A stretch of 64,000 nucleotides of DNA, taken from positions 1 through 64,000 of the forward strand of contig CATJCP010000398.1 of NCBI GenBank assembly GCA_949737515.1, written 5' to 3'. This DNA comes from an uncultured Oscillospiraceae bacterium. GTDB lineage: Bacteria; Bacillota; Clostridia; Oscillospirales; Ruminococcaceae. The position numbers were made by a program, and so were the translations under genes. Positions 56,888 through 63,233 of this stretch are shown here, piece after piece (the first letter of the stretch is position 1; the number at the start of each line of letters is the position of its first letter). The notes beneath the pieces are model-generated. The model did not search any database, was not told the DNA's origin, and saw only the letters and a program-made list of their open reading frames with translations.

Positions 56888-58675
56888 TTAAACCGAATAC
56901 CACTTTGCCTGGGAATTCCAGAGCCTGGTATACACTGGATTGACATTGATCAGCTGGTCGTGGGAGCCGCACCCTACAATCTTTCCATGGTCCATCACAA
57001 TGATTTTATCGGAAAATTTTGTGGTGCTCAGCCGGTGGGTGACAAACACCTTGATGCTCTGGGAATCCAGCTCCATCATGCTGCGGATGATCTGCTCCTC
57101 CACTAAGGGATCCAAGGCAGCGGTGGGTTCGTCAAAGGCGATCACCTCATGGTCCTTGTACAGCCCCCGGGCAATGGCCAGCTTCTGCCAGTTCCCCCCG
57201 GAAAGCTCCCCGCCGCCAAATTCCCGGCCCAGGCTGGATTCCAGGGTGTTGTCCCCAAACCGGAAGGAGACAGCCTCCAGCAGCCTCTGGACCTTCCCGG
57301 AGTCCGCCGGACCGCTGGCGTCGCTGATTGCCACATTTTCCTGAATGGTAAGGGCGTAGCGGCAGAAATCCTGGAACACAGCGGAGTTATTTTGGTAGAT
57401 ATCCCATTCCCGCACCTGGTTGATCACGTCGTTCCCATAGGAGATTTCGCCGGAATCCGGCTGATACAGACCCATCAGCAGCTTGACCATGGTCGTCTTG
57501 CCAGAGCCGTTTTCCCCCACCACCGCGACGCTCTCCCCCGGCTGGATATCAAAGGTAATGCCCTGGACCGCCTCTCTTTGGGGAATATAGGAAAAGCGGA
57601 CATCCTTGAAATGGATCCCCTCTTTTGCGGAAATCTTCTTTTCTGTGCCCTTCCGCTCCTCGTAGTCCAGCACCTTATAATAATACTTGCCCTTCAGGCT
57701 GCACTGGAAGCTGAACATGGCCAGACCGCAGATTCTTCCAAAATTAGATCTCAGGGTGGTCACAGCGCCGATAGAGGCCCCCAACACGCCGATGGAGATA
57801 TCCCCCCGCAGGGCCAACGCCACCGCCACGCCATAGGTGAGGGCTGTGGTCAAAATATTGACCATCTGGTTCAGCATATCCAAAAGGGCGTTCTTTTTTT
57901 GTAGCTTCCAATTTTCCTCATTATAGCTTTCCAGCTCCTGGTTCCAAAGGCGGAGAAAAAAGTTTTGATTCTGGTGGACCCGAACCTCCTTGATATTTTC
58001 CAGAGAGGTGAGGATCCCCTCGTAATATTTTTTCCGCCGCTGGATGGGCTGGGTTCTGTCCTCCGCCAGATACTGACGCTTGGACTTTAAAAACCTGGCA
58101 AAAATATCCGGCGCCAGGGCCAGGAAGGACAGAAAAATGAGTGCCGGGTGGAAGGTAAACAGCACCGAGGAAACCGTGACAAATTGAAACAAATACAGCA
58201 AAATCTCCGAGGAGAACATCATGGTCATAAACCGCAGCTCCCGGGAGGCGCTGGAAGCCAGTTCAATATCCTTGTACAGCTCGCTGCGTTCATAGCTTTT
58301 CAGCGGGATCTTCGCTGTTTTGCGGTTCATATCGTTTTGGAGCACCGTCTCAAATTCACTGCCGAAATAATTGACATGGGAGCGGAAAAGCGGATATACC
58401 ACAACATACAGCAGCTGCACGAGGATGGAAATGAAAAACACCCGGTAGATTTCCCCGCTGATTCCCGCCGTCACCATGATCTGGTCTGAGCAGTCAAAGA
58501 TCATCCGCTCCAGATACACCTTGACGGGGCTGACCAGCGCGGGAAGCAGGGAGAGGAGAACCATGAGGAAGTACTGCTTTGGCTTCTTGACAACAAATGC
58601 CTTATAGGTGGTGAGGAATATGTTCCAGGTGCTTCTGGAACCGGTTTCCCTCCCTTTTTTCACCTTTGTGCTCAT
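56888..58675 (-). CDS. ABC transporter ATP-binding/permease protein (exporter half)
   Basis: VVGENGSGKTTMVKLLMG, ELSGGNWQKLAIARGL, VIAFDEPTAALDP. Confidence 0.93.
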   Translation of the reverse strand: MSTKVKKGRETGSRSTWNIFLTTYKAFVVKKPKQYFLMVLLSLLPALVSPVKVYLERMIFDCSDQIMVTAGISGEIYRVFFISILVQLLYVVVYPLFRSHVNYFGSEFETVLQNDMNRKTAKIPLKSYERSELYKDIELASSASRELRFMTMMFSSEILLYLFQFVTVSSVLFTFHPALIFLSFLALAPDIFARFLKSKRQYLAEDRTQPIQRRKKYYEGILTSLENIKEVRVHQNQNFFLRLWNQELESYNEENWKLQKKNALLDMLNQMVNILTTALTYGVAVALALRGDISIGVLGASIGAVTTLRSNFGRICGLAMFSFQCSLKGKYYYKVLDYEERKGTEKKISAKEGIHFKDVRFSYIPQREAVQGITFDIQPGESVAVVGENGSGKTTMVKLLMGLYQPDSGEISYGNDVINQVREWDIYQNNSAVFQDFCRYALTIQENVAISDASGPADSGKVQRLLEAVSFRFGDNTLESSLGREFGGGELSGGNWQKLAIARGLYKDHEVIAFDEPTAALDPLVEEQIIRSMMELDSQSIKVFVTHRLSTTKFSDKIIVMDHGKIVGCGSHDQLINVNPVYTRLWNSQAKWYSV

Positions 58676-60441
58676 ACCGTAGCCTCCTCTTCCACATACC
58701 ACTTCCGCTGGCTGTCATACATCTTTTCATACAGCCCATGCTGTTCCATCAGCTCGCTGTGGGGGCCGCGCTCCGCAATCCTTCCCCCGGCCAGCACCAA
58801 AATCTCGTCTGCCATCCTGGTGGAGGCCAATCGATGGGTGATAAACAGGGTTGTCCTGCCCTGGGCAATCTGCCCAAACTGTTCGTAAATGGCATTTTCC
58901 GCAATGGGGTCCAAGGCCGAGGTGGGTTCGTCCAGCAGGATAACCGCAGCATCCTGATACAGGGCCCGGGCAAAGGCCACGCGCTGCCACTCGCCGCCGG
59001 ACAGATTGACGCCTCCTTCATAGATTTCCCCCAGCCGCGTTTGGACGCCGTCGGGCAGGTTTTCGATCTTCTCCAGAAGATTGGCCTCCTCCAGCGCCTT
59101 TTTCATCCTGTCCTCAGACGCGTCTTCGCCAAAGGTGATATTGTCCCGGATGGAAAGATAGTACCTGGAAAAGTCCTGGAACACGGCGGCATAAACGCGA
59201 TACAGCTCCTGTTGACAATACTGCCTGATGCTTCTGCCGTTGAGCAGGATTTCCCCTTCGTTCACCTCATACAGCCGAAGCATCAGCTTGATGATAGTGC
59301 TCTTCCCCGCGCCGTTTTCCCCCACCAGGGCATAATGCCTTCCTTTTTCCAGCCGAAAGCTGACGCGGTCCAAGACCTTGGGGCCGTTGGGATACTGGAA
59401 GGACACATCGCGGAATTCCAGGCTTTCAAACTCTTCTCGGGAAAGTGCGGCGCTTTCCTCTTTTGGAAGATCCTGGTCCGGCAAATCCAAAAAGGTATAG
59501 TACTCCTTCCAATACCGTTTCTGCCGCATCAAATCGTTAAAAATAGTGCGAATCTTATTCTGGGTGGTTAGGTTCAGGTTCACCGCTGCATGGGAGGCGG
59601 CGATAAAGAGCCCTGGAGTAAGGCTTCCCCGCAAAATATAGGAGAGCATCGTAAGCATCATCAGGATGGTGCAGATATACCCCGCTGTATCAATCATGCT
59701 GAAAGTCAGTCCAAATTTATAGTCATACTGCCGCATGGCGTTTCTCTGAGCCATCAAAAAGCCGGAGCGCTTTTGGTTGATAAAATCCGTAAAGCCAAAC
59801 AGCTTTTTCTCGTGGGCAAAGGGCTTGGTGTTTTCAATAGAGTCGAGATAGACCACCCGCCGCTCTGTCTCGCTGAACTGGCGGTTCAGGTTGTGGAAAC
59901 TCTTGGCCGAGCGGTCTGCAAAAAAGAGGAGGGCCACAAACAGCGCCAAAAAAATCCCGGCGCATACCAGCGAAACGGAGCAGATAATGGCAAAGAATCC
60001 CGCGACGCCAATCAACGCTGCTACCAGCTCGCAGATATCCCGGCTGAAATCCCGAAGCGTTCCGTCCATGTTCTTGTTGACGCGGGAATACAGATCCATA
60101 ATCTCCTTATTTTCGGCGTACTGGTAGGAAATGGTCTGCATTTTGCCGATCACCTTCCGGCGGAACCAAAAATCGGAGTTCATCCGGATCCGTTCATACA
60201 GCAGCCCTGCTGCCGCAGGCAATATGTAGATACAGATATACGCCCCTATCAGCTGCACAAAAGGAAGTATGACCGCGCTGGCAGGAGAACCGCCGTTTAA
60301 AGTTTCTCCGATCAGGTTGATCACCTGTTCCTCAAAGCGCACGGTAAGCGGCGTCATAATACCAGTGAGAACCGCCGCCGCCATGACCAAAAGGAAGTCC
60401 TTCCGGTTATTCTCCCATATAGCCCCTAACGTTTTTTTCAT
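58672..60441 (-). CDS. ABC transporter ATP-binding/permease protein (partner half)
   Basis: LVGENGAGKSTIIKLMLR, NLSGGEWQRVAFARAL, VILLDEPTSALDP; ATGA overlap with the next gene. Confidence 0.93.
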   Translation of the reverse strand: MKKTLGAIWENNRKDFLLVMAAAVLTGIMTPLTVRFEEQVINLIGETLNGGSPASAVILPFVQLIGAYICIYILPAAAGLLYERIRMNSDFWFRRKVIGKMQTISYQYAENKEIMDLYSRVNKNMDGTLRDFSRDICELVAALIGVAGFFAIICSVSLVCAGIFLALFVALLFFADRSAKSFHNLNRQFSETERRVVYLDSIENTKPFAHEKKLFGFTDFINQKRSGFLMAQRNAMRQYDYKFGLTFSMIDTAGYICTILMMLTMLSYILRGSLTPGLFIAASHAAVNLNLTTQNKIRTIFNDLMRQKRYWKEYYTFLDLPDQDLPKEESAALSREEFESLEFRDVSFQYPNGPKVLDRVSFRLEKGRHYALVGENGAGKSTIIKLMLRLYEVNEGEILLNGRSIRQYCQQELYRVYAAVFQDFSRYYLSIRDNITFGEDASEDRMKKALEEANLLEKIENLPDGVQTRLGEIYEGGVNLSGGEWQRVAFARALYQDAAVILLDEPTSALDPIAENAIYEQFGQIAQGRTTLFITHRLASTRMADEILVLAGGRIAERGPHSELMEQHGLYEKMYDSQRKWYVEEEATV

Positions 60442-60949: not shown

Positions 60950-60978
60950 TTGATTCTATTGCGAAATATATGTATAAT
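60950..60978 (+). promoter_or_regulatory. Sigma-A-like promoter of the EF-G-like gene
   Basis: TTGATT-N17-TATAAT, about 185 nt upstream of the start codon. Confidence 0.75.
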
Positions 60979-61051
60979 TACACTATATTGAAAAAGTGCC
61001 GCAGGTTGTTTTATGTCAAAACTGCCAAACCAGTGGAGAACACCGAAAAAA

Positions 61052-61143
61052 CTCTGTATACGGAGCGATAGGCACGCCGGCGGGCAACCGCCGGAAATTT
61101 CATGAAATGAAGCAGAGCGGCAGGCGCAGCTGGGGCCTATCGC
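61052..61143 (+). ncRNA. Candidate structured 5' leader of the EF-G-like gene
   Basis: GCGATAGGC (61065-61073)/GCCTATCGC (61135-61143) closing helix; CCGGCGG-GCAA-CCGCCGG GNRA hairpin (61077-61094); CTCTG-TATA-CGGAG hairpin. Confidence 0.55.
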
Positions 61144-61163
61144 CAGTAAGGAGAGAGAAAACC

Positions 61164-63233
61164 ATGAGACAATATCTAGCGGGTAAAATCAGAAACGTTG
61201 CAGTTGCGGGCCATAACGGAGCGGGAAAGACCTCGTTGTGTGAGGCCCTGCTGTTCAAGGCCAACGCCATTGACCGCTTGGGAAAGGTCAGCGACGGCAA
61301 TACCGTCAGCGACTTTGACCCAGAAGAGATCAAGCGTAAGGTCTCCGTATCCTCTGCTGTGATCCCCTTTAACTGGGGAAGTGCAAAGATCAATCTGTTG
61401 GATACCCCCGGAATGTTTGACTTTGAGGGCGGCCTGTACGAAGGCGTTATGGCGGCAGAAAGCGTTTTGATCACTGTATCCGGCCGCTCCGGCGTATCTG
61501 TCGGCGCGGAAAAGGCCTACAAAATGGCTGTAAAAAATGGAAAGTCCTGTATTTTCTTCGTATCCAAGCTGGACACCGAACATGCTGACTTCTATAAGGT
61601 TCTGGAAGGACTGAAGGCCAGCTTCGGCCCCAGTGTCTGCCCGGTAGTGGTCCCCTTTATGAATGACGGCAAGGTGGAGTGCTACATCAACCTGATTGAT
61701 ATGAAGGCCTATACATACGACGCCCAGGGCAACGCCGCCGAAGTGGCCATGCCCGACGCAGGCCATCGGATCGACGGCCTGGTTGAGGCCATCGGGGAAG
61801 CGGTGGCAGAAACAGACGAGGCGCTGTTTGACAAATTCTTTTCCGGCGAAAAGTTTACCAGGGACGAGATCATCAAGGGCATCCACGACGGCGTAAAATC
61901 CGGTTCCATCTCCCCGGTGTTCTGCGGCTCCACCGCCACCCTGGAGGGTGTGGATATGCTGCTGGACGCCATGGTCGACCTGCTCCCCTCCGCATGGGAG
62001 AGCATCTCCATGACCGCCACCGATGCCCAGGGCGAGACGGTAGAGGTGAAGTGTGACGACGAGCCCCCCATGTCCGCCGTTGTGTTCAAGACCATCGCCG
62101 ACCCCTTTATTGGAAAACTCTCCTTTGTCAAGGTGATCACCGGCCAGCTTTCAGGGGACATTACCCCTGTCAACGCCCGCACCGGTCAGCCGGATAAATT
62201 CGGCAAAGTCATCTTTGTCACCGGCAAAAAGCAGGGGGATACCTCCTACATTACCGCAGGGGATATCGGCGCTGTCACCAAACTGTCGGAGACCCGCACC
62301 GGGGATACCCTGTGCGATCCCAAGCGGATCCTCTCCTATCAGCTCCCCTCCTTCCCCAATCCCACCTACTCCATGGCCATTAAGCCCAAGGCCAAGGGCG
62401 ACGAAGGTAAAATCGCCAGCTCGATCCAGCGGCTGATGGAGGAAGACCCCACCCTCCGCTATGAGCAGAACCCTGAAACCAAGCAGCAGCTGATCGCTGG
62501 CCTTGGCGAGCAGCACCTGGATGTTGTACTCTCCAAGATGAAACAGAAATTCGGCGTCGACGTCACCCTGGAGGCCCCCAAGGTTGCTTACCGGGAGACC
62601 ATCCGTAAAAAGGTACAGGTTGTCGGCAAACATAAGAAACAGACCGGCGGCCACGGACAGTTTGGCCACGTTGTCATGGAGTTTGAGCCATGGGACGGCA
62701 TTGAGCTGAAGTTCGAGGAAAAGGTTGTCGGCGGTTCGGTTCCCAAGGGATATTTCCCGGCAGTGGAGAAGGGCCTGCAGGACTGCATCCAAAAGGGAGT
62801 CCTGGCCGGATACCCTCTGGTTGGCCTGAAGGCCACCCTGCTGGACGGCTCCTATCACCCTGTGGATTCCTCCGAAATGGCCTTTAAGCTGGCGGCAGGC
62901 TTGGCCTACCGGGATGGTATTCCCCAGGCGTCCCCTGTGATCCTGGAGCCCATCGGCAATTTGAAGGTACTGGTCCCGGACAGCAACACCGGGGATATTA
63001 TGGGAGACGTCAACAAGCGTCGCGGCCGTGTTCTTGGCATGAACCCCGATGAGGATGGCCTGCAGCTGATTGAAGCCGAGGTACCCATGAGCGAAATGCA
63101 GGACTTCACCACCGCGCTGCGCTCTATAACCCAGGGGAGGGGTTCCTATGAGTTGAACTTTGACCACTATGAGCAGCTTCCTCCCGCTCTCCAGGCCGAC
63201 GTCATTGAAGCCGCCAAGAGCGAAGGAGAATAA
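61164..63233 (+). CDS. Elongation factor G-like translational GTPase (EF-G paralog class)
   Basis: NVAVAGHNGAGKTSLCEALLF; INLLDTPGMFDFEGG; SKLDTEHADF; EF-G domain III-V motifs; AAGGAG SD before ATG 61164. Confidence 0.92.
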   Translation: MRQYLAGKIRNVAVAGHNGAGKTSLCEALLFKANAIDRLGKVSDGNTVSDFDPEEIKRKVSVSSAVIPFNWGSAKINLLDTPGMFDFEGGLYEGVMAAESVLITVSGRSGVSVGAEKAYKMAVKNGKSCIFFVSKLDTEHADFYKVLEGLKASFGPSVCPVVVPFMNDGKVECYINLIDMKAYTYDAQGNAAEVAMPDAGHRIDGLVEAIGEAVAETDEALFDKFFSGEKFTRDEIIKGIHDGVKSGSISPVFCGSTATLEGVDMLLDAMVDLLPSAWESISMTATDAQGETVEVKCDDEPPMSAVVFKTIADPFIGKLSFVKVITGQLSGDITPVNARTGQPDKFGKVIFVTGKKQGDTSYITAGDIGAVTKLSETRTGDTLCDPKRILSYQLPSFPNPTYSMAIKPKAKGDEGKIASSIQRLMEEDPTLRYEQNPETKQQLIAGLGEQHLDVVLSKMKQKFGVDVTLEAPKVAYRETIRKKVQVVGKHKKQTGGHGQFGHVVMEFEPWDGIELKFEEKVVGGSVPKGYFPAVEKGLQDCIQKGVLAGYPLVGLKATLLDGSYHPVDSSEMAFKLAAGLAYRDGIPQASPVILEPIGNLKVLVPDSNTGDIMGDVNKRRGRVLGMNPDEDGLQLIEAEVPMSEMQDFTTALRSITQGRGSYELNFDHYEQLPPALQADVIEAAKSEGE

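Follow-up and report, generated by a model that had tools for sequence, protein, structure and literature searches.

The window analysed here, a stretch of 64,000 nucleotides (nt) from an uncultured Oscillospiraceae bacterium (assembly GCA_949737515.1, contig CATJCP010000398.1), includes a gene for an EF-G-like translational GTPase which is an ordinary member of the EFG II family, a second version of the ribosome-moving factor EF-G (Table 1). The start codon is the ATG at 61164, which has a good ribosome-binding site (AAGGAGAGAG) just upstream and is the start common to orthologs (M[RK]QY); an in-frame GTG is present further upstream at 60996. The protein scores 868.3 bits with the NCBIfam model NF009381 (cut-off 583), whereas it stays under the cut-offs of the canonical EF-G model TIGR00484 (606.9 bits; cut-off 659.4), the tetracycline ribosomal protection profile NF012153 (268.9 bits; cut-off 775) and NF058620, which represents the Bacteroides thetaiotaomicron EF-G2 type (542.5 bits; cut-off 1000). 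All five Pfam domains of EF-G (GTP_EFTU, EF-G_D2, EFG_III, EFG_IV and EFG_C) are present, and an AlphaFold2 model (mean pLDDT 90.0) matches EF-G structures including 1WDT, 8DMF and 9K0Z over the full length.

The EFG II signature residues defined by Margus et al. (Gly16, Leu25, Thr291, Gly333 and Lys352 in 1WDT numbering; PMC3150367) are all present in the window protein as G16, L25, T310, G354 and K373, the last three positions being mapped from 1WDT by alignment, and the five canonical sequences have A, T, I, A and G at these positions. The canonical EF-G (EFG I) motifs DTPGH, AHxDAGKT and RGITI are not found in the protein. In a FastTree tree, the 217 EFG II sequences of the main survey, which are mostly from Bacillota, are separated from the five canonical rows with a local support of 83.

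An earlier note on this DNA took the protein for a divergent paralog of EF-G that lacks the catalytic His, with DTPGM in place of DTPGH in the G3 motif. Translation, alignment with Thermus EF-G and the membership in EFG II bear this out: phmmer aligns Met84 (codon 61413-61415) with the His of the Thermus EF-G DTPGH motif, and the equivalents of Met84 in canonical EF-G are His87 in Thermus and His91 in Escherichia coli. A sequencing slip at Met84 can be ruled out, as Met is shared by a 94%-identical congener and the 32 family members sampled at this position all have Leu, Met or Ile. The further implication that the loss of His is peculiar to this protein is refuted. His occupies the G3 position in all five canonical rows and in none of the 217 EFG II sequences (Y 116, L 45, F 31, M 9, A 5, N 3, D 3, I 2, K 1, G 1, V 1). 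Similarly, His is absent from 41 EFG II sequences of Chloroflexota and Acidobacteriota samples (Y/F 39, S 1, V 1), which were taken from the phyla of one Chloroflexota and one Acidobacteria metagenome-assembled genome and of which two are in genomes already included in the first set. A catalytic loss unique to this genome was thus rejected, His being missing from every sampled EFG II. Absence of the G3 His is a family-wide trait of EFG II with Tyr or Phe as the usual residue; the observation in the earlier note is correct, but the feature is a hallmark of an already known family. In the Acidobacteria-phylum set (L279-L300), several EFG II also lack the Asp of DTPGxxDF (e.g., DTPGYGNF, DTPGYGAF and DTPGYSVF).

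In the window's own family, the G3 residue is aliphatic in all 32 sampled rows (L 26, M 4, I 2). Aliphatic residues are essentially confined to one Oscillospirales clade, to which all of these 32 rows belong. This main clade contains 54 rows (53 aliphatic and one Lys) and has a support of 99 in the FastTree tree, and the aliphatic state requires five changes on the tree, whereas 200 shuffles of the labels never gave fewer than 45. The named members of this clade are mostly Oscillospiraceae in the NCBI sense (Ruminococcus bromii, R. flavefaciens, Gemmiger, Faecalispora and Candidatus Pseudoruminococcus). The 94% congener has Met and an 84% congener has Leu. The Met of the window protein is an interchange inside an Oscillospirales Leu/Met clade and marks a group of gut Clostridia, not one bacterium. 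Neither Margus et al. (PMC3150367) nor Atkinson 2015 (PMC4342817) discusses the absence of the G3 His in the main text. What is new here is at most the aliphatic G3 residue fixed in Oscillospirales EFG II, a modest residue-level variant that was not found in the texts searched.

Table 1. Features of the EFG II gene and its upstream region (positions in the window)
Feature	Position	Strand	Basis or remark
EFG II (EF-G-like translational GTPase), 689 aa, five EF-G domains	61164-63233	+	NF009381, Pfam, AlphaFold2 model
G1/P-loop VAGHNGAGKTS, residues 14-24	61203-61235	+	Lys22 and Thr23 kept; canonical Asp replaced by Gly19
G2/switch I RKVSV, residues 58-62	61335-61349	+	Ser for Thr; not RGITI
G3/switch II motif DTPGMFDF	61401-61424	+	translation, alignment, 217-sequence survey
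G4 FVSKLD, residues 132-137	61557-61574	+	canonical NKxD
Domain IV loop I KKQTGGHGQFG, residues 491-501, conserved tip	62634-62666	+	K491, Q493 and G495 invariant
Domain IV tip DGSYHPVDSSE, residues 561-571	62844-62876	+	His565 (E. coli EF-G His583) invariant in 217 EFG II
Promoter-like site TTGATT-17-TATAAT, sigma-70-like	60950-60978	+	consensus match only

The G1 loop and the G4 motif had also been called non-canonical, which holds in part. The sequence GHNGAGKT fits the general pattern GxxxxGK[ST] but differs from the canonical AHIDAGKT by the substitution of Gly for Asp; position 19 is Gly in 189 of the 217 EFG II and Asp in one. This Asp is a monovalent-cation ligand in other translational GTPases, and its loss has already been published as an EFG II trait (PMC4342817). 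The G2 sequence is near the published Clostridia EFG II pattern RxxSI (PMC3150367). SKLD at G4 does deviate from NKxD, but such forms are common in the clade: among 57 aliphatic-G3 rows, TKxD occurs in 15, SKxD in 14 and NKxD in 13. Degraded G4 motifs are found in 40 of 70 rows with a non-aromatic G3 residue and in 49 of 147 others, raw counts which correspond to about six independent pairs and are not significant. In four EFG II relatives (L033, L036, L038 and L165), G4 is destroyed (NGLC, SKMA and NQMT) and the P-loop is intact, and guanine specificity may be lost. Another EFG II (L228) has the P-loop GAGTTS, in which the change of Lys to Thr is expected to abolish normal nucleotide binding; this could be a sequencing error. 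Across the 217 EFG II, D80, P82 and G83 are invariant and K22 and R58 nearly so, and the ribosome-facing residues of the translocation tip, H565, K491, Q493 and R620, are invariant.

Comparison with the 94% congener by NG86 gives a nonsynonymous rate (dN) of 0.033 and a synonymous rate (dS) of 0.83 for the whole gene (dN/dS of about 0.04), and a dN of 0.015 and a dS of 0.86 for the G domain (dN/dS of about 0.02); at larger distances dS is saturated. The open reading frame is intact in nearly all sampled relatives. The low dN/dS indicates that the G domain is maintained and hence that the gene is not decaying.

A second, canonical EF-G coexists with EFG II in the congeners, as had been anticipated: in both well-assembled congeners, canonical fusA (about 1200 bits with TIGR00484) is located between rpsG and tuf. 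No match to canonical EF-G is present in the window's own assembly (G000), which is 84.9% complete. In this assembly contig ends interrupt the str operon: rpsG (C341:4-315) is cut after residue 104, and tuf (C301:1-495) begins at residue 229. Because rpsG and tuf are cut exactly where the congeners carry fusA and the assembly is incomplete, the absence of fusA is best read as an assembly gap, and the possibility that the genome has no other EF-G was rejected on the same ground; the broken operon implies that canonical EF-G is present here too. A further 689-aa EF-G-like protein of this assembly (G000:C243; L004, L052) has about 24% identity to the window protein and carries DTPGHVDF and RGITI; it is a Tet/EF-G-family factor separate from fusA.

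The EFG II gene appears to be monocistronic and lies outside the str operon, flanked by a pair of ABC transporter genes and recG, names which come from reading the sequence. In the flanks of relatives, recG was not found next to the EFG II gene, and a weakly similar ABC gene was found in two relatives only. The ABC transporter genes (56888-58702 and 58672-60441, minus strand) overlap in tandem and, by reading, encode membrane and ATPase domains; a perfect match to TTGACA-18-TATAAT is located upstream of this minus-strand pair (60556-60527). The 5' leader of about 175 nt (60988-61163) that separates the promoter-like site from the ATG of the EFG II gene has a strong predicted fold (-56.9 kcal/mol, z -2.7) with the closing stem GCGATAGGC...GCCTATCGC. 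A riboswitch or other known RNA was considered for this leader and rejected, as no Rfam match came near its cut-off, and in a comparison for which only plus-strand loci count, not even the 94% congener shows the structure clearly.

Results for related proteins indicate how loss of the switch-II His might affect function. In E. coli EF-G, H91A reduces GTP hydrolysis from 202 to 28 per second (about 14% kept) and release of inorganic phosphate (Pi) from 28 to 0.32 per second (about 1%), whereas H91Q allows normal hydrolysis with Pi release more than 20-fold slower; overall, replacement of H91 makes Pi release slower by a factor of 20 or more (PMC4532990). Since H91A retains this much hydrolysis, a missing His is not equivalent to missing hydrolysis. 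The suggestion that some paralogs of this kind are without GTPase activity agrees with reports on Mycobacterium smegmatis EF-G2, described as lacking ribosome-dependent GTPase (cited in PMC3150367), and on B. thetaiotaomicron EF-G2, reported to be without GTPase activity (Han et al. 2022, PMC9841332, as cited by other authors). Thermus EF-G-2 is reported to hydrolyse GTP and to support poly(Phe) synthesis (cited in PMC3150367). As the Mycobacterium and Thermus proteins both bear Tyr at G3 and behave oppositely, the G3 residue alone cannot decide between weak and absent hydrolysis. EFG II is also said to be able to replace EF-G, with much slower translocation (PMC4342817, citing earlier work).

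Taken together, the window protein is an EFG II paralog kept by purifying selection that probably acts as a slow auxiliary translocase-type factor, in which ribosome-triggered GTP hydrolysis and Pi release would be much slower than in canonical EF-G or dispensable. Such a factor would bind to the ribosomal A site via domains III-V and would bind guanine nucleotide via the intact P-loop lysine and DxPG. The catalytic steps given in canonical EF-G by the switch-II His and the P-loop Asp would be absent or rewired, so that, on the ribosome, GTP hydrolysis and above all Pi release would be slowed or no longer needed; an altered or slow GTPase is therefore plausible for this protein. Loss of His would be ancestral to EFG II, with a later change from an aromatic residue to Leu or Met in Oscillospirales. 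Some points weigh against a slow or dispensable GTPase: Thermus EF-G-2 has neither His nor the P-loop Asp and is nevertheless reported to be active, no assay of any Oscillospirales EFG II was found in the literature, and the strong constraint on the G domain is as compatible with a working GTPase as with a factor that only binds GTP.

The Thermus case and the strong purifying selection on the G domain would also suit a protein that works fully as a ribosome-dependent GTPase and translocase, with another group standing in for His, as reported for Thermus EF-G-2, which moreover has TKLD at G4; the invariance or near invariance of D80, P82, G83, K22 and R58 is in line with this. We consider it unlikely, as Leu or Met is unable to make the polar contact possible for His or for the hydroxyl of Tyr, the aliphatic clade also varies at G4 (NGxC, SKxA and NQxT), and M. 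smegmatis EF-G2 is reported to be inactive as a ribosome-dependent GTPase even with Tyr at G3. Less likely still is a protein without a translocase role in the cell, which would use its EF-G fold to bind the ribosome as a factor for stress, recycling or protection. In Atkinson's view, EFG II is unlikely to serve mainly in translocation (PMC4342817), EFG I coexists with EFG II, and in Bacteroides fusA2 is induced under carbon limitation while fusA falls (PMC6989115), but the translocation residues of the domain IV tip are invariant in EFG II, the tip loops of Tet proteins are differently conserved (PMC4342817), and the Tet-family profile scores far lower than NF009381. Loss of catalytic residues and variable G4/G5 motifs in some relatives might suggest a pseudo-EF-G that is decaying towards loss, which is highly improbable in view of the dN/dS values and the intact reading frames described above.

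A bolder and only tentative proposal, which we think doubtful, is that the whole Oscillospirales EFG II clade gave up ribosome-stimulated hydrolysis, with its aliphatic G3 residue, missing P-loop Asp and drifting G4. The clade would then represent a natural GTP-binding, hydrolysis-independent translocation factor for times of GTP scarcity, in convergence with Bacteroides, whose GTPase-less EF-G2 belongs to the same gut habitat. More generally, EFG II is a widespread and still poorly understood translation factor, and the natural series of His, Tyr and Leu/Met offers a way to ask where in translocation GTP hydrolysis is required. The family-wide absence of the G3 His and the fixation of an aliphatic residue in one gut lineage provide this series; the window gene itself is ordinary.

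Among the known systems, B. thetaiotaomicron EF-G2 (PDB 8DMF/7UVP; fusA2) resembles the window protein as an accessory EF-G paralog beside canonical fusA, and its structure is ribosome-bound, but it has 718 aa and belongs to the type whose NF058620 cut-off the window protein does not reach. The chain in 7UVP and 8DMF is named 'Tetracycline resistance protein TetQ' although 8DMF is the ribosome-bound B. thetaiotaomicron EF-G2, which is probably a deposited misnomer. M. smegmatis EF-G2 (PDB 9K0Z/9K10) is an EF-G2-type factor without the G3 His, seen on the 70S ribosome and with TKLD at G4; it differs in Tyr at G3 (DTPGYADF), its actinobacterial branch and its reported lack of ribosome-dependent GTPase. 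Thermus thermophilus EF-G-2 (PDB 1WDT/2DY1), whose query sequence matched the 1WDT chain over all 154 residues, shares with the window protein the EFG II fold and the absence of both the G3 His and the P-loop Asp, and differs in Tyr at G3 (DAPGYGDF), TKLD at G4 and reported GTP hydrolysis. The Clostridia EFG II sub-subgroup (NF009381/PRK12740; PMC3150367) has the same signatures, G2 pattern (RxxSx) and domain layout as the window protein; its genes also lie outside the str operon, and its members also lack the G3 His. The window protein differs in having Met84 where most members have Tyr or Phe, a difference shared with the Oscillospirales clade.
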